Positions 6,253 through 50,224 of a stretch of 64,000 nt of DNA are shown piece by piece (position 1 is the first letter of the stretch; every line of letters starts with the position of its first letter). Under the pieces are notes generated by a model, which was not told the DNA's origin, searched no databases, and worked only from the letters and a program-made list of their open reading frames with translations. The position numbers and the translations under genes were made by a program. Source of the DNA: Holdemania sp. Marseille-P2844 (lineage in GTDB: Bacteria; Bacillota_I; Bacilli_A; Erysipelotrichales; Erysipelotrichaceae); the NCBI RefSeq assembly GCF_900120005.1, contig NZ_LT635449.1, forward strand, positions 357,410-421,409, read 5' to 3'.

Positions 6253-8547
6253 TTAATCGTTGATGCCTGGAATCGTCAGTTCGTCCAGTTTTTCTTTTTT
6301 GACTTTCTTCTTTTTCTTTTCCTTCGGCTTCACATGGGTGCGAATAGCATACCACATCTGCGGCGCAATGAAGATCGAGGAGAAGGTGCCGGCGATCAGA
6401 CCGACGAACATCGCGAAGTTGAACGTGACGATCGCACCCGATCCCATCAACAGCAGCGCGATGATCGGCAGCAGCGTTGTGATCGAAGAGAAGACGGAAC
6501 GCACCAGCGTCTTATCCAGCGAGTCGTTGACGATCTGCTTGTAATCTTCGTTTGTCAGCTTCGGCTTGCGGCTTTCCGCCACCGACTCGCGGACGCGGTC
6601 GAAGACGACGATCGAGTTGTTGATCGAATAGCCGATGATCGCCAGAATGACGGAAATCAGCTCGATGTTGATTTCCATTCTGAAGATGGCGAAGATCGCC
6701 AGAACGATTGCAACGTCATGAACCAGCGCAACGATACAGCTGACCGCATAATCCCATTTAAAGCGGATCGTGATGTAGATCAGCATCGCCACCCACGCCA
6801 GCAAGGACAGTGCGATCGCGTTCTTGACCAACTCGCGGCCGACGACCGGCGTAACGACGTTATCGTTTGGCTCAATTCCATATTTCGCCGTCAGCGTTTC
6901 CTTGATCGAAGTCAGCTGATCCTGTTCCAACGCCTGGTTCAGCGTGACGTAAACAACCTTATCGCCGGAAGCCTGTACGCGGCTCGGCTTGTAGCCCAGC
7001 GCTTCAAAATCGCTGCGGACCTCATTGGTATTCAGCGTTTCATTGGATGAAACGGTAATCTTCGTGCCGCTGGAGAAGTCGATCCCCAAATTCAGCGCAC
7101 CCTTGCCGCCAAAGCCGTTGACGCAGATCATCACGACCGCCGCCGCCAGAATAATCAGGCTGGTTGTAATCAAATACTTCGCTTTGCCGACAAAGTCGAC
7201 CTTCTTAAACGGACCGAAATAAAACTGTTCCTGACGCTTGGCCACATCCGGAATATTCGACTGCTTCACGCCGAACCAGATCTTCTTGTTGTCCAGCGCG
7301 CCGGACTTCACGATCTGATTGACTAAGAAGCGGGAGACATACACGTTTAACACCATCGTGCAGAAAACGGTGACCATCAGCATCGTCGCAAAGCCCTTGA
7401 CTGCGCCGGTGCCGAAGATATACATGATCAACGCCGCTAAGAGCGTCGTGAACTGCGCGTCGAAGATCGTCGCAAACGAAGTCGACTGTCCTTCTTTGAC
7501 GGCGTTCTGAACGGAACGGCCGGCGTACAGCTCGTCTTTGATGCGTTCGAAGGTGATGATGTTCGCGTCCACGGTCATGCCGACGCCTAAAACCAGCGCT
7601 GCGATGCCCGGCAGCGTAAAGACGCCGCCCATGCCGCCGTAAATCGCGAAGACCGCGAAGATATACAGCGCCAGCATCACGTCGGCAATCACGCCCGCGA
7701 AACGGTAGACGACCAACATGAAGACCATGACTAACGCCACGCCGACGATGCCCGCCGTCGCAGTCTTGTTAAACGCGCCGATGCCATAGTCGGCACTGAC
7801 GACGTTGGAGTAAATTTCTGTCATCTTGACAGGCAGACTGCCGGAATTGATCAGCTCCGCCAGCTCGCGCGCTTCGCTTTCCGTAAAGCCGCCGCTGATG
7901 ACGCAGTCGCCGGAAATTGCCGACTTGACCTGCGCCGCGCTGATATACTTCGCTTCGCCCCCGGCCTGCGCTACGGCCGCTTCCTTGACATAGGAATCGC
8001 CGTCTTCATAATCCAGCCAGACAATCATAATGTTGTTGCCGGTTCCCATTTCGGAAACCTTCTGCGTGATTTCCGCAAACTTCGCCTGATCGGCAATCTT
8101 CAAGCTGACGACCGGCGCGCCGTTTTCATACCCTAAAGAAGCGCCGCCTTCCTTGATGATGCTTGCATCGGAAAGCAGGTTGTCGTTGACGTCGCGGAAC
8201 GTTAAGTTCGCGGTCGAGGAAATCACCCGCCGGGCTTCCTCCTGATCCTTGACCCCCGCCAGCTGCACGCGGATGCGGTCGTTGCCTTCAATCAAAATCT
8301 GAGGTTCGCTGACCCCCAGTACGTTAATGCGCTTGCTGACGCTTTCCGCCACCGCGGACATCGCCGGCAAATCTTTGCCTTCCTGCAGCGGGCTGATCTG
8401 ATAGACGATCTCAAAGCCGCCCTGCAAATCCAAACCCAGCGTCGTGTTTCTGGCGACATCCTGCGCGAAGATGCCGATCATTGCAAAGATGGCAACAACA
8501 GTCACGATGAAGACCGTTAAACGACTTGTTCTTGTCCCCTTTTTCAT
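6253..8547 (-). CDS. secDF: SecDF fused protein-export protein
   Basis: A 764-residue natural fusion of SecD and SecF, which uses the proton gradient to pull exported proteins through the SecYEG channel. The SecD half starts with one membrane helix and the DLQGGFEIVYQI motif near 39-50, has a periplasmic-type P1 domain, then a five-helix bundle containing GVGMTVDANIITFERIKDEL. The SecF half starts near 440 with its own first helix and the GIDFSSGT motif, ending in a bundle with GYSINNSIVVFDRVRE. The C-terminus is lysine-rich (KEKKKKKVKKEK). The start ATG overlaps the comN stop as ATGA, with GGAGGA upstream inside comN, so translation is coupled. Fused SecDF is typical of Bacillota. Confidence 0.97.
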   Translation of the reverse strand: MKKGTRTSRLTVFIVTVVAIFAMIGIFAQDVARNTTLGLDLQGGFEIVYQISPLQEGKDLPAMSAVAESVSKRINVLGVSEPQILIEGNDRIRVQLAGVKDQEEARRVISSTANLTFRDVNDNLLSDASIIKEGGASLGYENGAPVVSLKIADQAKFAEITQKVSEMGTGNNIMIVWLDYEDGDSYVKEAAVAQAGGEAKYISAAQVKSAISGDCVISGGFTESEARELAELINSGSLPVKMTEIYSNVVSADYGIGAFNKTATAGIVGVALVMVFMLVVYRFAGVIADVMLALYIFAVFAIYGGMGGVFTLPGIAALVLGVGMTVDANIITFERIKDELYAGRSVQNAVKEGQSTSFATIFDAQFTTLLAALIMYIFGTGAVKGFATMLMVTVFCTMVLNVYVSRFLVNQIVKSGALDNKKIWFGVKQSNIPDVAKRQEQFYFGPFKKVDFVGKAKYLITTSLIILAAAVVMICVNGFGGKGALNLGIDFSSGTKITVSSNETLNTNEVRSDFEALGYKPSRVQASGDKVVYVTLNQALEQDQLTSIKETLTAKYGIEPNDNVVTPVVGRELVKNAIALSLLAWVAMLIYITIRFKWDYAVSCIVALVHDVAIVLAIFAIFRMEINIELISVILAIIGYSINNSIVVFDRVRESVAESRKPKLTNEDYKQIVNDSLDKTLVRSVFSSITTLLPIIALLLMGSGAIVTFNFAMFVGLIAGTFSSIFIAPQMWYAIRTHVKPKEKKKKKVKKEKLDELTIPGIND

Positions 8548-8834
8548 ACGTTTCTTCCTCCTATTAAATCGCTAAACTCTGATAATTCTTGATGATACCC
8601 TTCAATGATCGCCTGCTTTGACAAAAAGCGGACAATCTGATCTGCCGATAAAGATAATATATCATTTACAGCCTCGTGTAAAGTCTTCGGTTGATTCCTT
8701 TTCCACACCAGCTTCTGCATGACATCCTCAAGATTTTTATAGTTTAGGCCGGGAAGCTGTTCACGCTGCAGCTGCTGCAGCTTCAGCATCAGAGTGAGCT
8801 GAATCTGCTTATTTTTCAGATCCAGGGATTCCAT
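8544..8834 (-). CDS. comN: ComN-family post-transcriptional regulator
   Basis: A soluble, Leu- and Gln-rich helical protein of 96 residues. It matches ComN (YrzD) by size, by its helical pattern with LSADQIVRFLSK near the C-terminus, and above all by position between secDF and spoVB, the order found in Bacillus subtilis. There ComN controls where and how the comE mRNA is used. Sequence identity to ComN cannot be judged by eye, so the call leans on synteny. AAAGGGGAG lies 7 bases before the ATG. The last four bases overlap secDF. Confidence 0.75.
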   Translation of the reverse strand: MESLDLKNKQIQLTLMLKLQQLQREQLPGLNYKNLEDVMQKLVWKRNQPKTLHEAVNDILSLSADQIVRFLSKQAIIEGYHQELSEFSDLIGGRNV

Positions 8835-44579: not shown

Positions 44580-44606
44580 CAAAAAAAGAGAACCGTTTCA
44601 GTTCTC
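44580..44606 (-). terminator. Terminator of the holin-like gene
   Basis: GAGAAC (44588-44593), seven-base loop, GTTCTC (44601-44606), with seven A before it. Confidence 0.8.
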
Positions 44607-44629
44607 CGCCTGATGAATGTTCATTCTGC

Positions 44630-44920
44630 TTAACTATGTTGACGGTTTTTAATACATTTCATGGATTCGAAAGCGCCCGTTGCCGCCCATCCCAGACACA
44701 GGCCGCTGATCGCTTTTACCAGCATACCCTGGCCTACTGAAAAATCAGGGATTACCAATCCCAGCACCACGCCCATGATCGCGCCGATCAAAGGAATCCA
44801 GGTGCTGTTCATCCGCGGTAAAAATGATTTTAGCAATTCTGCGCACACATAAACGCAGCCTGCGATTAAAATACCATTGCCAAGCAGTAATTGATGCATG
44901 AGTTCCATCATTTCATCCAT
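44630..44920 (-). CDS. Phage holin-like small membrane protein
   Basis: A 96-residue protein with three hydrophobic helices (about 13-32, 40-58, 66-85) and a charged tail (CIKNRQHS). LPRMNSTWIPLIGAIMGVVLGLVIPDF is the pattern of A118-type phage holins. In a phage it would form the pore that releases endolysin. No endolysin or structural gene is near, so it is either a prophage remnant or a co-opted holin. GAGGGATG lies 5 bases before the ATG. The XRE gene on the same strand starts 47 bases upstream of it. Confidence 0.8.
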   Translation of the reverse strand: MDEMMELMHQLLLGNGILIAGCVYVCAELLKSFLPRMNSTWIPLIGAIMGVVLGLVIPDFSVGQGMLVKAISGLCLGWAATGAFESMKCIKNRQHS

Positions 44921-44966
44921 TTTTCCATCCCTCTTTCACTTTCAATATATGAAAAAATCGAAGGAA

Positions 44967-45242
44967 TTATCCCTCGATCAAGAGTTTCTCTTTGTCATTT
45001 GGAAACAGCGGTGAATCGAAAAATTCAGCAAGTGTCATCCCAACGGCTTTGCAGATCAATCGAATTGTCTGCAAGGTCACCGTTTTATCCTTTTTTGTTT
45101 TCAGTGTACTGATCGTTGATTTATTAACACCGGACATTTCTGCCAGCTTACTGATACTCTTGATATCCAAGATTACCATAATTTCCTGAATGCGCAGATA
45201 GACAGCATAATTTAGATCAAAAAATTGTTCATTTTCACTCAT
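44967..45242 (-). CDS. XRE-family helix-turn-helix regulator
   Basis: A 91-residue protein, mostly one Cro/CI-type domain at about 12-75 (IMVILDIKSISKLAEMSGVNKSTISTLKTKKDKTVTLQTIRLICKAVGMTLAEFF). No effector domain. The operator might be the arms CGGTCGAAAAT and ATTTTGACCG (45279-45325), which flank its upstream region. It leads a two-gene unit with the holin-like protein. It could be a phage-derived repressor. Confidence 0.85.
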   Translation of the reverse strand: MSENEQFFDLNYAVYLRIQEIMVILDIKSISKLAEMSGVNKSTISTLKTKKDKTVTLQTIRLICKAVGMTLAEFFDSPLFPNDKEKLLIEG

Positions 45243-45278
45243 AGCTGATCTCTCCCGCTTTCGTTGATTTTATTATAG

Positions 45279-45325
45279 CGGTCGAAAATTTAACATATAA
45301 GACTAGCAATCGACTATTTTGACCG
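45279..45325. repeat. Imperfect inverted repeat upstream of the XRE gene
   Basis: CGGTCGAAAAT (45279-45289) and ATTTTGACCG (45316-45325) pair except for one bulged base; the spacer is 26 bases. A candidate regulator site. Confidence 0.35.
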
Positions 45326-45458
45326 TTTATTAAAATGAACATTTTTGGTATAATATGGAAAATTGGGTTATTGGAAGTGATATTTAGCGATATACAGATT
45401 AATATGAAAACTAATATGCAGAATAGATAGGATCTAATAACAGATTAAGATGAATTAA

Positions 45459-45478
45459 AAACTAAGGGCCCTTAGTTT
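45459..45478 (-). terminator. Terminator of the secreted-peptide gene
   Basis: A perfect 20-bp palindrome, half-site AAACTAAGGG. As RNA it forms an 8-bp stem with loop GGCC, then UUUUU-rich sequence on the minus strand. It begins 6 bases after the peptide stop codon. Confidence 0.85.
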
Positions 45479-45484
45479 AGTTAT

Positions 45485-45595
45485 TTAATTGGGACCATAA
45501 ACGCTGAATCCATAATTTGCCAAAACAGGCGAGGCTGTTGGAACAGCGGCCATTAACGGCAGAATCAGCATCAGACTAACTAAAATCTTTTTCAT
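45485..45595 (-). CDS. Candidate secreted signalling pro-peptide, 36 residues
   Basis: Thirty-six codons from ATG 45595 to TAA 45485. The product has a classic Sec signal: KK at 2-3, a hydrophobic core at 4-18, then helix-breaking Pro and Ser-Pro, and a signal peptidase I site VLA at 24-26. Cleavage would release a 10-residue peptide, NYGFSVYGPN. AAAGGA lies 8 bases before the ATG, a TTGTGG-17-TATAAT promoter lies upstream, and a terminator follows the stop at once. It is divergent from an XRE-TPR regulator, the layout of Rgg/SHP-type signalling. I recognise no known pheromone sequence. Role inferred from structure and context; a bacteriocin-like or small wall peptide is the alternative. Confidence 0.72.
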   Translation of the reverse strand: MKKILVSLMLILPLMAAVPTASPVLANYGFSVYGPN

Positions 45596-45601
45596 CTTTT
45601 C

Positions 45602-45619
45602 TGTCCTTTCTTCAGGACA
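45602..45619. repeat. Inverted repeat covering the peptide gene's ribosome site
   Basis: TGTCCT (45602-45607), six bases, AGGACA (45614-45619). In the peptide mRNA this hairpin would hold AAAGGA, the ribosome site. Its distal arm shares four bases with the 14-bp palindrome at 45616-45629, so the two hairpins exclude each other. Confidence 0.5.
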
Positions 45620-45629
45620 AACGTTTGTC
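45616..45629. promoter_or_regulatory. Perfect 14-bp palindrome at the peptide gene's transcription start (candidate operator)
   Basis: GACAAACGTTTGTC is its own reverse complement. It starts 8 bases after the -10 of the peptide promoter, so it covers about +1 to +14. A dimeric HTH protein such as the divergent regulator could bind here. Confidence 0.6.
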
Positions 45630-45636
45630 TGTAATA

Positions 45637-45665
45637 ATTATAAAATTCATAGAGCCAATCCACAA
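45637..45665 (-). promoter_or_regulatory. Promoter of the secreted-peptide gene
   Basis: On the minus strand TTGTGG (45660-45665), exactly 17 bases, TATAAT (45637-45642). Confidence 0.75.
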
Positions 45666-45676
45666 CGAAAGTCCTT

Positions 45677-45705
45677 TTGAAAAAAAGGCATAGATGACAT
45701 ATAAA
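45677..45705 (+). promoter_or_regulatory. Promoter of the XRE-TPR regulator
   Basis: TTGAAA (45677-45682), 17 bases, TATAAA (45700-45705). Its -35 is 11 bases from the -35 of the divergent peptide promoter, so one bound protein could influence both. Confidence 0.7.
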
Positions 45706-45753
45706 TAACTATAAAAATTCAGATGATTTGACTCTTTTTTACGAAAGAAGGCT

Positions 45754-47013
45754 ATGGATACAATGAATACTGATGAAAGTAAACTAAAAGCAGCTTTAAT
45801 TAGGAAAAGACGAATTGAATTAAATTGGAAGCAAGAAGCCTTTGCAAAGTCATTACCCATGGCTAATTCTTCGTTTAGCGAGATGGAAAGAGGTCTCCGT
45901 CCTATTACAGAAGAATTATATAGAACGATCTCAAACAAATTGGAATTACCTTCTTTAACCACGGATTGGTTAGCAGAACAAAGCACGCTAATGAATCTGA
46001 TTAAAGAAAAATTATACTTTTTCCAATACGAAGAAGCTTCAGTATTATATACAAAATTAGAAAAACAAAATGATATATTAAACAACTCGCTTTTGTTTTT
46101 AGATTACAATCTTACTTTATTTATATATAATATTACTTTTAACAATGGTAAAGAACTCAAAAGAATAAAATTTATAAAAACATATCAAGACTGTTTAAAC
46201 TCTGTACAAAATTATCAATTTATCCTATATCAAGGCATAGCTGAAAAAAACAAATTAAAATTAGATCAAGCAATGGATTTTTTTCAAACTCTATTAAATT
46301 TACCATACACCGTCAAATATTATACTGATCTGTTATACTATCATGCAGCTATTTGTTTAATACAAATAGGACATCTAACTCTCGCTCATAATTACAATAA
46401 AAAGGCTGACACACTCTTCAAAGAAGAAGGCAATTTTCAGAGGATAGCTTATACAATGATGCATGAAGCTATTATTTATTCGCATGAAAATCACCCTGAA
46501 GAAGCAGGAAAAATCTATGACAAATTATTAAAAACTTATTCTAAACAATTATCTGATCAAACTATAAATATGATTCTGTGTAATGCTGGGAATAATTATG
46601 TAAATGCCACACAATATAATAAAGCTGAGAATATCTATAAACAGTTAAGACCCGGATGGCAGAATATCCCTGAAATCTTTTATGGAATAGCTTGGACATT
46701 ATTGCAGACTGATCAATATGATAAACTAGATGAATTCTTAGAATATAGTAAACAATATCCTAAGAATAAGTTTATAAAAGATATGCTGGAAATCATTAAC
46801 CTCCAAAGAAAATCAAACCATGAAAAAGAAATAGAAATTAAACTTAAAGCCTGTGAGAAGTATTTAAACCGTGAAGGTAGTTCAGAAGGCATGATCTTCA
46901 TTTACGAACAACTGATTCAGTATTACGAAACCCGCTCCATCGTCAAGCAAGTTAAATATCTTAAGAAATTAAATGAGTTAAATAAAAGAGGTATGCAATA
47001 TGATCAACGATGA
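45754..47013 (+). CDS. XRE-HTH and TPR-like repeat regulator (RRNPP-like)
   Basis: A 419-residue cytoplasmic protein. An XRE helix-turn-helix spans about 10-70 (LIRKRRIELNWKQEAFAKSL, then SSFSEMERGLRPI). The rest is all-helical with TPR-like pairs (EEASVLYTKLEKQNDIL, AHNYNKKADTLFKEEGNFQ, EEAGKIYDKLLKTYSKQL, NKAENIYKQLRPGWQNI). This is the plan of Rgg/PlcR/NprR/PrgX regulators, whose TPR part binds an imported peptide. Codons are far more AT-rich than those of neighbouring genes, a sign of transfer. The divergent peptide gene is the likely ligand source. ATG 45754 lies only 2 bases after AAGAAGG; ATG 45763, 11 bases away, may be the true start. Confidence 0.82.
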   Translation: MDTMNTDESKLKAALIRKRRIELNWKQEAFAKSLPMANSSFSEMERGLRPITEELYRTISNKLELPSLTTDWLAEQSTLMNLIKEKLYFFQYEEASVLYTKLEKQNDILNNSLLFLDYNLTLFIYNITFNNGKELKRIKFIKTYQDCLNSVQNYQFILYQGIAEKNKLKLDQAMDFFQTLLNLPYTVKYYTDLLYYHAAICLIQIGHLTLAHNYNKKADTLFKEEGNFQRIAYTMMHEAIIYSHENHPEEAGKIYDKLLKTYSKQLSDQTINMILCNAGNNYVNATQYNKAENIYKQLRPGWQNIPEIFYGIAWTLLQTDQYDKLDEFLEYSKQYPKNKFIKDMLEIINLQRKSNHEKEIEIKLKACEKYLNREGSSEGMIFIYEQLIQYYETRSIVKQVKYLKKLNELNKRGMQYDQR

Positions 47014-47239
47014 AGAATTAAGAGTGCAAATGGAAAATGATTTACGGAAGCTCAAGGAAAAGCTGAGAAAAGATCCTGCTGATCCGCTGCCGCTCATGGC
47101 TCTGCGCATGAAATATCCGTTTAATTCCAGCAGTGATTCTCTGAAATCTTTGTTGATCAACGACGATTATGATCTGAAAACCTTGTCAGCGCTGCTGCTG
47201 GCAGAATATCACTCTTGGAACCACAAGCACCGAAAATAA
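47000..47239 (+). CDS. Small charged protein of unknown function, downstream of the regulator
   Basis: A 79-residue protein starting 14 bases inside the regulator gene, with AAAGAGGT 5 bases before its ATG, so translation is coupled. It has a charged helix (EELRVQMENDLRKLKEKLRKD, about 5-25), a Pro-rich turn and a second helical part ending HSWNHKHRK. No signal peptide. I do not recognise it. Its codons are closer to the host's than those of the regulator. It may modulate the regulator or be a separate small host gene captured in the unit. Confidence 0.65.
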   Translation: MINDEELRVQMENDLRKLKEKLRKDPADPLPLMALRMKYPFNSSSDSLKSLLINDDYDLKTLSALLLAEYHSWNHKHRK

Positions 47240-47294
47240 AAAAACTGCAGCGCTAAGGGATAGTCAATAAATCCCAGGCGCTGCAGTTTTTTTT
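47237..47294. terminator. Bidirectional terminator between the regulator unit and murQ
   Basis: AAAACTGCAGCGC and GCGCTGCAGTTTT arms with an inner GGGAT/ATCCC pair; A-run before and T-run after. Confidence 0.88.
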
Positions 47295-47297
47295 ACC

Positions 47298-48194
47298 TTA
47301 TTTAATTGCCTGACGAACAAAGCCTTCGTTCTTATTCAGACGTTCTTCCGCTTCTTCCTTTGTGCAGCCTGTCAGAATCATGACGATGGCTACCTTCGGG
47401 TAATTGCCGGATACTTCATACATCTTTGCCGCTGTTTCATAATCGCAGTCCGTTGCCATCATGATGATGCGCTTGGAACGTTCGATCAACTTCAAGTTTG
47501 TCGCTTTGACGTCAACCATCAGGTTACCGTAAACCTTGCCATAGCCAACCATGGAAGCTGTTGACAACATATTCAGGATTAATTTCTGGCAAGTGCCGGA
47601 TTTCAGACGTGTTGAACCTGTTAAAACTTCCGGACCGGCATCGACTTCAATCGCAACATCCGCATGCTTGCCAACTTCACTGTTCTTGTTGCAAGCGACG
47701 GAAACCGCTGTCGCCCCAATGGAACGCGCATAATCTAAACCGCCGATAACATACGGAGTTCTGCCGCTGGCCGCGATGCCGCAGACAACGTCTTTTTCAG
47801 TCAGCTTCTGATCGACCAGATCCTGCTTGCCTAATTCTGCATCATCCTCAGCGCCTTCGACCGCAGTTAAGAATGCACCTGGACCGCCTGCCAGTAAGCC
47901 GACGACTTCATAGGTCGTACCAAAGGTCGGCATGCATTCGGCGGAATCAATGACGCCTAACCGTCCGGATGTCCCAGCACCCATATAAATCAGACGGCCG
48001 CCGCTGCGCAGCGCTTTAACAATCGCCTGGACGGCTTTTTCAATTTCCGGGATTGCTTCACGAACCGCGTCAGGAACCTTGTGGTCCTCTTCGTTCATGA
48101 TTTCCAATAATTCGCGGGTGGAAAGCGTATCGAGGTTCATCGTTTTCTCGTTACGGCGTTCTGTTGTTAAATGATTTAATTTTACTTCAGACAT
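47298..48194 (-). CDS. murQ: N-acetylmuramic acid 6-phosphate etherase
   Basis: A 298-residue SIS-domain enzyme that cleaves the lactyl ether of MurNAc 6-phosphate to give GlcNAc 6-phosphate, in recycling of peptidoglycan sugars. The LTTERRNEKTMNLDTLSTRELLEIMNEED opening and the substrate loop MGAGTSGRLGVIDSAECMPTFG near 71-92 are diagnostic. AVEGAEDD (catalytic Glu region) and GIAASGRTPYVIGGLDYA near 138-155 are present. No PTS (murP) or MurR regulator is adjacent, so the MurNAc importer must be elsewhere. AAAAGGAGA precedes the ATG. Confidence 0.95.
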   Translation of the reverse strand: MSEVKLNHLTTERRNEKTMNLDTLSTRELLEIMNEEDHKVPDAVREAIPEIEKAVQAIVKALRSGGRLIYMGAGTSGRLGVIDSAECMPTFGTTYEVVGLLAGGPGAFLTAVEGAEDDAELGKQDLVDQKLTEKDVVCGIAASGRTPYVIGGLDYARSIGATAVSVACNKNSEVGKHADVAIEVDAGPEVLTGSTRLKSGTCQKLILNMLSTASMVGYGKVYGNLMVDVKATNLKLIERSKRIIMMATDCDYETAAKMYEVSGNYPKVAIVMILTGCTKEEAEERLNKNEGFVRQAIK

Positions 48195-48262
48195 GTTGTG
48201 TTCTCCTTTTTTTCCTCATGTTTATTATAGCGTTTTGACAGGGTTTGGACAAGACCGGATTT

Positions 48263-50116
48263 CTATCCCTCCAAACATTCTTCCCAGCGCTGCATTAAAT
48301 GCTCAATCTCATTGTGCAGATCGTCGATCTGTTCATCCAGTTCATTCATTTTCTGATAATCATGGTAGTATTCCGGATCAAACCGCTTTTCACGCATTGC
48401 TTCCAGCTGTTCTTCCTTTTCCGCGATCTGCTTTTCCAGCTTGGCCGCTTCGCGGGCATTCGGATTGCGCTTCGGAGTCTGACGCTGAACTTCAGCGTCT
48501 TTCTTTGGCGCCTGTTCCTTTTCCTTCTGCTGCTGATCGTCATCGAATTGTTCATAACCAAACGGATAATAGACAGCATTCCCCTGCATGTCGATATGCA
48601 GGATCGCCGTAGCTATCTTCTTGATAAAATAACGATCATGCGAAACGAACAGAATCGTTCCGGTATATCCGTTCAGCGCTTCTTCCAGTGCTTCCTTGCC
48701 TACAATATCCAAATGGTTGGTCGGTTCGTCCAAAAGCAGGAAATTCGCCTGACGCAGCATCAATTTCGCCAGAGACAGCCGAACCTTTTCGCCCCCGGAA
48801 AGCACGTCGACCGTTTTGAACACGTCGTCGCTGGTAAACAGGAAACGTCCCAACACCGTCCGGATCTGAGTCCGGTCCAGTTCCGGATAATCGTCCCACA
48901 ATTCTTCCAGCACTGTCTTCCCGGAGGAAAACTGCGCCAGCTGCTGATCAAAATAACCGGTTTCAATCTGATGACCATACAGATAATCCCCGCCCAACGC
49001 CGGCAGATCACCGACCAGCGTCTTCATCAACGTACTCTTGCCGCAGCCGTTAGGCCCCAGCACCGCAATTCGCTGCCCTGATAAAATTTCCAGGGAAATC
49101 TCGCATAACGGATGATCGTAACCGACCTTGAGATCCTTGATCTCCAGCACTGTTTTTCCACCTTTTAACCGCGGAACAAAATGCGCTGAGAAACTCCGGG
49201 TATCACTTTTCTGAGGGGCGTCGATCTTTTCCATCCGCTCCAGCGCCTTGATCTTCGATTGCGCCATCGCCGCTTTTGTCGCCTTGTAGCGGAAACGCTC
49301 GATCAAGCCTTCCAACCGCTCAATTTCCTTCTGCTGACGATTATACATCTGCTGCTGACGGATTAAATCCTGCTGCTTCTGATTCTGAAAGCTCGTGTAG
49401 TTGCCGGTGTAATGCTTCATCGAACCATATTCCAGCTCATAAACTTCTTCCGCAATGTGATCGAGAAACATCCGGTCATGGGAAACCAGCACGACAGCCC
49501 GGCTGTATCGCTTCAGATACCCTTCCAGCCATTCGATCGTTTCCAAATCCAGATGGTTGGTCGGTTCGTCCAGAAGCAGTATATCCGGTTTGCTTAAAAG
49601 TAATTTAACAAATGCAAGACGTGTTTTCTGACCGCCGGAAAAGGTATTGATCGTTCTATCCAGCATTTCTTCCTGAAAGCCAAACTTCGTAAACACCGTC
49701 ATTAACTCCGACTGCCACGTATAACCGCCTGCCATCTCAAACTGTGTCTCCAGCTGAGCATAACGATCCAGCACCGCTTCACTGTAATCCGTTGCCATGC
49801 GTTCTGTCAGCTTATCAAGCTGAGCTTTCAATTTCTGCAAGGGTTCAAAGACTTTTTCAAGGTCTTCCCGGACGGTTAAGGTTTCGTCTGGAAAGGTCGT
49901 CTGGGCCAGATAACCGATCCGCGTGCCGGAGGTACTGTGAATTTCACCTTTGTCCAGCTCCAGCTCGCCGGTCATAATTTTTAAAAGCGTCGATTTTCCA
50001 CATCCGTTGCGGCCGACGACCGCAATTTTCTCAGTGCCCCGGATCTCAAACTGAATATCCTCAAACACGGTTTCCGTGCCGAAAGATTTACTCCCGCGGC
50101 TGATTTGATAGAGCAT
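48263..50116 (-). CDS. ABC-F family ATPase (ribosome-associated)
   Basis: A 617-residue protein with two ABC domains and no membrane part. Domain 1 has Walker A VVGRNGCGKSTLLK near 35, signature FSGGQKTRLAFVKLL and LLLDEPTNHLDLETIEWLE. The connecting P-site tRNA-interaction motif region is helical (about 240-300). Domain 2 has Walker A VLGPNGCGKSTLMK near 350, signature LSGGEKVRLSLAKLM and LLLDEPTNHLDIVGKEALE. A C-terminal coiled coil (about 540-617) follows. These proteins act on stalled or antibiotic-bound ribosomes. It resembles the YdiF/Uup group rather than a known resistance member. The ATG at 50116 lies 9 bases from GGAGA. Confidence 0.92.
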   Translation of the reverse strand: MLYQISRGSKSFGTETVFEDIQFEIRGTEKIAVVGRNGCGKSTLLKIMTGELELDKGEIHSTSGTRIGYLAQTTFPDETLTVREDLEKVFEPLQKLKAQLDKLTERMATDYSEAVLDRYAQLETQFEMAGGYTWQSELMTVFTKFGFQEEMLDRTINTFSGGQKTRLAFVKLLLSKPDILLLDEPTNHLDLETIEWLEGYLKRYSRAVVLVSHDRMFLDHIAEEVYELEYGSMKHYTGNYTSFQNQKQQDLIRQQQMYNRQQKEIERLEGLIERFRYKATKAAMAQSKIKALERMEKIDAPQKSDTRSFSAHFVPRLKGGKTVLEIKDLKVGYDHPLCEISLEILSGQRIAVLGPNGCGKSTLMKTLVGDLPALGGDYLYGHQIETGYFDQQLAQFSSGKTVLEELWDDYPELDRTQIRTVLGRFLFTSDDVFKTVDVLSGGEKVRLSLAKLMLRQANFLLLDEPTNHLDIVGKEALEEALNGYTGTILFVSHDRYFIKKIATAILHIDMQGNAVYYPFGYEQFDDDQQQKEKEQAPKKDAEVQRQTPKRNPNAREAAKLEKQIAEKEEQLEAMREKRFDPEYYHDYQKMNELDEQIDDLHNEIEHLMQRWEECLEG

Positions 50117-50148
50117 GGATGTCACTCTCCTTCCTTGATTAACAACAG

Positions 50149-50175
50149 GAACCTGCCGTTTGAACTGGCAGGTTA
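50149..50175. repeat. Hairpin between the amidase-like and ABC-F genes
   Basis: AACCTGCC and GGCAGGTT arms (8 bp, perfect). There is no T-run after it on the minus strand, so it is more likely a leader structure of the ABC-F gene or a weak pause site than a terminator. Confidence 0.5.
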
Positions 50176-50224
50176 CCGAATTTTTTCATTCTTGATTTTA
50201 ACTGAAACTTTGCGCCCGTAAGGT

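Follow-up and report, generated by a model that had tools for sequence, protein, structure and literature searches.

Do a 36-codon gene of Holdemania sp. Marseille-P2844 and the regulator gene that diverges from it together form a peptide pheromone system? The two lie in a stretch of 64,000 nucleotides (NZ_LT635449.1, positions 357,410 to 421,409; hereafter the window, whose own numbering is used throughout), where an earlier note had proposed a secreted peptide, with its C-terminal decapeptide as the signal, and a receptor of the RRNPP type. Our results support this core reading, which held up under the checks that might have refuted it, as far as these were run: peptide and regulator very probably form an RRNPP-type peptide pheromone circuit, and the gene pair is likely a private cell-to-cell signaling switch. 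The pair itself, its conservation, the reading frame, a palindrome and its position, the fold of the receptor, and the mosaic variability of the latter come from sequence or model.

The propeptide gene (45485..45595, minus strand; 36 codons plus stop, MKKILVSLMLILPLMAAVPTASPVLANYGFSVYGPN) carries all the signals that had been described for it: a -35 box TTGTGG (45660..45665) and a -10 box TATAAT (45637..45642) separated by a spacer of 17 nt, a ribosome-binding site AAAGGA (45604-45609) preceding the ATG and, beginning 6 bases past the stop, a 20-nt palindrome, AAACTAAGGGCCCTTAGTTT (45459..45478), as probable terminator, all on the minus strand. The propeptide passes a rule-based signal-peptide filter (lysines, hydrophobic core), and a VLA, VMA, or VMG site is visible across its forms; cleavage after VLA would leave residues 27-36, NYGFSVYGPN (codons 45488..45517, minus strand), as the mature signal. 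A protein search with four peptide frames matched 11 database clusters, and the pattern [NT]Y[GS][FL][STN][VAI][FY]G[PEG][ND] covers 10 distinct C-terminal decapeptides from Holdemania loci and the database. The propeptide has 36 aa, and orthologues and database forms have 32-36 aa, with the exception of one 57-aa form bearing extra N-terminal residues. When the filter was run on 139 kb (the window together with four related stretches, each 16-20 kb long), it gave 8 matches in the ~31 kb of noncoding DNA, one peptide open reading frame (ORF) being counted twice for its two starts; 6 are the peptide gene and its relatives and 2 are other, unrelated ORFs, so that the peptide ORF appears to be more than chance.

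We compared the source genome (G000) with three other Holdemania genomes (G003, G002, and G001), which represent species, not close strains. The regulator is 78%, 55%, and 48% identical in G003, G002, and G001, respectively, and beside it each genome has a divergent signal-peptide ORF of 35-36 codons, ending in PVMGTYGFSVFGPN (G003), PIMATYGLSAFGEN (G002), or PVMATYGFTIFGPN (G001). The 36-codon frame, on whose conservation the proposal had been made to depend, is kept in all four with varied C-terminal decapeptides. The gene order holin-like, small XRE, peptide, regulator, 79-aa ORF, MurQ, ABC-F is also common to the four, the last two being genes that we take to be MurQ and ABC-F from our own reading of the sequences, without database search. 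In the peptide gene the proportions of synonymous (pS) and nonsynonymous (pN) differences are 0.38 and 0.10 against G003 (pN/pS 0.26) and 0.69 and 0.14 against G002 (pN/pS 0.20), and indels between the four orthologues are whole codons; judged by this excess of pS over pN, the protein is kept by the nucleotide changes. This synteny, together with a G001 regulator allele whose G+C content at third codon positions (GC3) is 0.55 within a 52% GC region, contradicts the recent horizontal transfer that had been read from the AT-rich codons of the regulator, even though that codon bias itself is real (GC3 0.25 vs. 0.40-0.74 in 11 other genes measured). A mobile-element origin is likewise without support: the one viral-contig scan that we ran yielded no confirmed relative of the regulator, and the DNA of the locus has no match in plasmids.

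Paralogous modules extend the comparison. G002 holds a paralogous pair, L009, with a regulator of 28% identity and the peptide MRKTFLIVLTAIFLTGTPLNPVMMYGHTVYMPN. A second pheromone-like module is found in G000 (L010) and G003 (L014), whereas neither G001 nor G002 has a DNA match to it; here SHP-like ORFs of 24 codons, MNLIYLSVLSGTFPLFGFYQFLGI (L010:1268-1342, minus strand) and MKSIYLSVLSGTFPLFDFYQFLGI (L014:1274-1348, minus strand), diverge from XRE-TPR paralogues (L010:1492-2697 and L014:1498-2703). Each has an AGGAG ribosome site and a TATAAT box, followed 7 nt later by a perfect palindrome.

How might the peptide gene be controlled? In five aligned loci (the four Holdemania orthologues and the G002 paralogue L009) the TATAAT box is identical and the TTG of the -35 box is kept throughout. 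Starting 7 nt past the -10 box is a perfect 14-nt palindrome, GACAAACGTTTGTC (45616..45629, unstranded), a candidate operator of the regulator that would lie over the expected transcription start of the peptide gene. It is invariant in the four genomes, while much of the surrounding gap is poorly conserved, and the exact 14-mer occurs once in each of them. The L009 site is ACAAGCGCTTGT, 8 nt past TATAAT, with both half-sites altered symmetrically; these changes fall at inner positions, corresponding to the loop of an RNA hairpin, and a DNA dyad is therefore favored. The L010 and L014 site is TCAAGTACTTGA, found once in each of the two genomes searched. A pattern derived from these same sites, TATAAT-N8/9-CAARNNYTTG, has 7 matches over the four Holdemania genomes, all at peptide promoters (reversed control, 1), the informative part being that there are no others; a 12-nt palindrome next to a -10-like box has 7 matches in the 139 kb, namely five peptide promoters and two places with an imperfect -10. 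Outside the genus the pattern is background, since it occurs in 76 of 272 family genomes with ~63 for the reversed control (hand count), and the six nongenus matches inspected by eye (L085, L088, L090, L092, L101, and L112) showed no convincing secreted-peptide ORF. When 41 regulator loci were screened for palindromes beside -10-like boxes, many AT-rich matches came up outside Holdemania, which we took as chance. Finally, a leader hairpin, UUUGUCCU/AGGACAGA (45600..45621, minus strand; -10.4 kcal/mol, z -3.34, for the window sequence only), spans the ribosome-binding site and may dampen translation, lowering the basal output of the peptide gene; both arms are present in the four orthologues and missing in L009 (by eye).

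The divergent gene (45754..47013, plus strand), 158 bp from the peptide gene, encodes 419 aa and is, by sequence, profile, and predicted fold, an XRE-TPR regulator and candidate intracellular pheromone receptor. Modeled alone, it folds into an XRE domain followed by about nine TPR-like helix pairs (residues 70-413; 45961..46992, plus strand) that match Rap/NprR, providing the candidate peptide groove expected from the earlier proposal; on these predictions its closest solved relatives are NprR/Rap. As described in the main text of one survey, RRNPP systems combine a Sec-secreted propeptide of 10-100 aa (SignalP) with a receptor of 250-500 aa bearing peptide-binding TPRs, encoded by adjacent genes (PMC10075063). 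Our locus fits this description, with the TPRs supplied by the predicted fold and Sec export judged by rule only.

The receptor itself is variable. Relative to G002, MurQ and ABC-F are 97% identical and other flanking proteins 79-96%, against 72% for the peptide and 55% for the regulator; at the nucleotide level, identity to G003 drops to 0.65-0.68 over positions 46001-46400, compared with 0.83-0.94 in the 47201-50200 bins and 0.74-0.94 in the 44601-45800 bins. By these alignments, the regulator is far more variable than its surrounding genes among the three closest Holdemania genomes. Residues ~71-230 vary most: the nonsynonymous divergence (dN) from G003 is 0.27-0.31 in residues 71-230, but 0.01-0.02 in the MurQ, holin-like, and small XRE genes, and the synonymous divergence (dS) is raised there too, suggesting that old alleles have been exchanged and that rapid change is not the whole cause. 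In 105 pairwise comparisons of 15 near-full-length alleles (P0007, P0021, P0022, P0038, and P0040 omitted as duplicate, partial, or distant), the most extreme pairs are mosaics, with identities in residues 60-250 and 275-416, respectively, of 45% and 100% (P0018/P0020), 50% and 92% (P0012/P0013), 61% and 98% (P0008/P0011), and 64% and 99% (P0002/P0010). Assembly chimeras might account for one metagenomic pair, hardly for all; from their sequences, the mosaic alleles look like specificity modules exchanged between strains. Peptide and receptor are linked in five pairs, the database peptides and receptor alleles coming without contigs.

Taken as a circuit, the 36-residue precursor would leave the cell through Sec and be cleaved after VLA, releasing NYGFSVYGPN or a shorter piece, which would build up outside and re-enter through an oligopeptide permease to bind the concave face of the TPR superhelix. 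A free regulator dimer would sit on GACAAACGTTTGTC over the start of the peptide gene and block its transcription, the leader hairpin perhaps damping leak; bound peptide would free the regulator from the palindrome and induce the peptide gene, a positive feedback that turns on in a crowd. G000 encodes 12 SBP_bac_5 proteins. As a separate observation, eight SBP_bac_5 oligopeptide-binding protein genes stand within 29 kb (G000:C17:385688-414498), a striking expansion. A site over +1 suggests repression, and as to its direction we lean, by a narrow measure, toward a repressor that is freed by the peptide. The opposite logic, where the peptide-bound regulator silences the peptide gene through the palindrome (negative feedback) and finds its main targets elsewhere at weaker or different sites, is a variant of the same circuit with an overlapping likelihood, and we consider it rather unlikely. 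RRNPP receptors of either sign are known, and the +1 position suits any repressor, peptide-bound or free. Against distant targets, the regulon search retrieved no further exact GACAAACGTTTGTC operators in the four Holdemania genomes, and with up to two mismatches allowed it has 18, 3, 9, and 11 matches on the forward strand, fewer than the 24, 15, 23, and 19 that the reversed pattern gives. Extra matches to the 12-mer ACAARCGYTTGT lie within ORFs of 360-469 codons in G000 (2) and G003 (2), and the one in G002 is the L009 module.

Where, then, would the output of a freed regulator lie? Candidates stand next to the pair. Downstream of the peptide gene is a small XRE-only protein of 91 aa (44967..45242, minus strand; HTH_26), a possible output, adjoined in all four genomes by a 96-aa holin-like membrane protein (44630..44920, minus strand; PF16079, E 2e-4, below the cut-off), with no lysis gene recognized among the neighboring ORFs. 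On the other side, a 79-codon ORF (47000..47239, plus strand) overlaps the 3' end of the regulator by 14 nt; it is kept in all four genomes (genus identities of 93%, 85%, and 43%), and neither Pfam nor NCBIfam gives it a match at E up to 1. Release of the regulator could also be followed by read-through from the peptide promoter that passes the terminator and reaches the small XRE and holin-like genes. This addition to the preferred circuit, whose likelihood overlaps with it, is possible yet doubtful: both genes are retained downstream of the peptide in the four genomes, small XRE genes also occur near paralogous modules, and the terminator hairpin is modest by itself (-6.3 kcal/mol, z -1.29), but the terminator core is conserved across the four orthologous loci and the ~200 nt ahead of the small XRE gene, conserved in three aligned genomes, suggest a promoter of its own. 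Three XRE-TPR modules have small XRE-only genes within ~1.3 kb (window 44967-45242; L077:8007-8255 and 8384-8620; L010:203-469 and 472-711), recognized either as HTH_26 matches or as BLASTP relatives (34-38%) of the 91-aa protein, and a further paralogue has one HTH_26 match nearby (G000:C15:64292), G000 having only 36 HTH_26 matches in its 3.68 Mb. Such genes may be the output arm.

Several results weigh against the pheromone circuit or its supports. A simple scanner run on the window listed neither the peptide promoter nor the terminator, with its modest hairpin, and a 14-nt perfect palindrome appears in 491 of 20,000 mononucleotide shuffles of the 158-bp gap; the palindrome alone is therefore weak evidence, and its weight rests on conservation, position, and paralogues. 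Against G001 the contrast between receptor and neighbors is lost (MurQ 91%, ABC-F 83%, small XRE 46%, 79-aa ORF 43%, a 358-aa protein 52%, and the regulator 48%). More widely, the regulator profile matches in 89 of 272 family genomes, with E < 1e-170 only in the four genus members (next best, 7e-39), and in 37 more distant or paralogous loci the filter found a signal-peptide ORF near the regulator in 8 (7 upstream within ~190 nt, 1 downstream) and none in 29; the L010 peptide and others of the SHP-like type escape this filter, which possibly undercounts. The anticipated recurrence of a secreted peptide beside regulator homologues is borne out in the four Holdemania genomes and one paralogue, but not in most of these further loci. 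Among the wider relatives, 52-codon signal-peptide ORFs (L007:1244-1402 and L054:1533-1691) precede an XRE-TPR homologue on the same strand in two other genomes and share a CGY...GC.Y motif, perhaps marking a further class of signal that contains cysteine, and a divergent 35-codon signal-peptide ORF, MKKLMVVTLLCLLSFGFVSVGSPVVSPLDWVHPKI (L064:2845-2952), lies 139 bp from a distant family homologue.

The 29 loci without such an ORF, and a regulon search that found none, would also suit an effector role for the peptide (as a small bacteriocin or a structural peptide that is secreted, for instance), next to a local XRE-TPR repressor that senses something else. We find this improbable: the decapeptide size and single Sec-type precursor, the closeness of the receptor to the peptide-binding NprR/Rap, and its variability all speak for a signal, and no immunity or export gene was recognized directly beside the peptide, the neighbor to note being the ABC-F-type ATPase (our reading, as above) three genes past the regulator. 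That an unrelated ORF merely neighbors a common XRE-TPR regulator is hardly credible because, even at about one such ORF per 15 kb of noncoding DNA, frame, synteny, promoter, and palindrome are conserved in all four genomes, and the same layout recurs in two paralogous modules.

With the pheromone circuit preferred, we offer a joint reading to which we give somewhat less than an even chance. It sees a private code, in which a nine-TPR receptor would serve a single genomic operator at the start of its own pheromone gene, with its specificity half recombined between strains into pherotypes. The duplicated module (receptor, divergent tiny peptide, +1 palindrome, and small XRE) would give two channels per cell, one using a Sec-type decapeptide and the other an SHP-like 24-mer, and the whole would make up a new subfamily of RRNPP systems in Erysipelotrichia, acting via local companion genes, not a regulon.

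Peptide signaling is little described in gut Erysipelotrichia. Our literature searches on RRNPP systems and peptide pheromones found no such system for Holdemania, Erysipelotrichia, or gut commensals, and the main text of three RRNPP surveys names neither Holdemania nor Erysipelotrichia (PMC10075063; PMC9765709; PMC12700828). Probably, the locus represents a new RRNPP subfamily. It supplies concrete peptides, a candidate operator, and naturally occurring mosaic alleles of a receptor, making signaling in these bacteria, and the way receptors change specificity, directly testable.

Among the known systems, arbitrium (AimR-AimP) is set apart by the single viral-contig scan, without a relative, and by a locus that here is chromosomal and syntenic in the genus. 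For PlcR-PapR, the regulator superposes poorly (root mean square deviation 11.8); PlcR is an activator with many boxes across the genome, whereas here there is one exact site per genome. Rap-Phr of Bacillus and its phages differs in that Rap, which has no DNA-binding domain, binds response regulators, while our receptor has an XRE domain. The parallel with Rgg-SHP, drawn from the outset, stands in part. With Rgg-SHP and ComR-ComS of streptococci the locus shares a divergent or adjacent tiny peptide gene, an XRE domain, and, as predicted here, an autoregulated peptide promoter, and the L010 module encodes an SHP-like 24-mer. On the other hand, no Rgg model is among the Pfam or NCBIfam hits of the regulator at E up to 1 (the presence of that model in the libraries being unchecked), Rgg and ComR are absent from its 50 listed structural matches, a list that does not exclude them, and among solved structures NprR/Rap come closest. 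The precursor also differs, with its Sec-type signal and VLA site, from SHPs, which are reported in the main text of the survey to use PptAB (PMC10075063). NprR-NprX of the Bacillus cereus group resembles our system in its helix-turn-helix followed by nine TPRs (profile, fold, and our own count of helix pairs). The two peptides are not known to have any obvious motif in common. In arrangement, NprX lies downstream of its receptor on the same strand, whereas the Holdemania peptide gene stands upstream of the regulator in divergent orientation and has a promoter and a candidate operator to itself.
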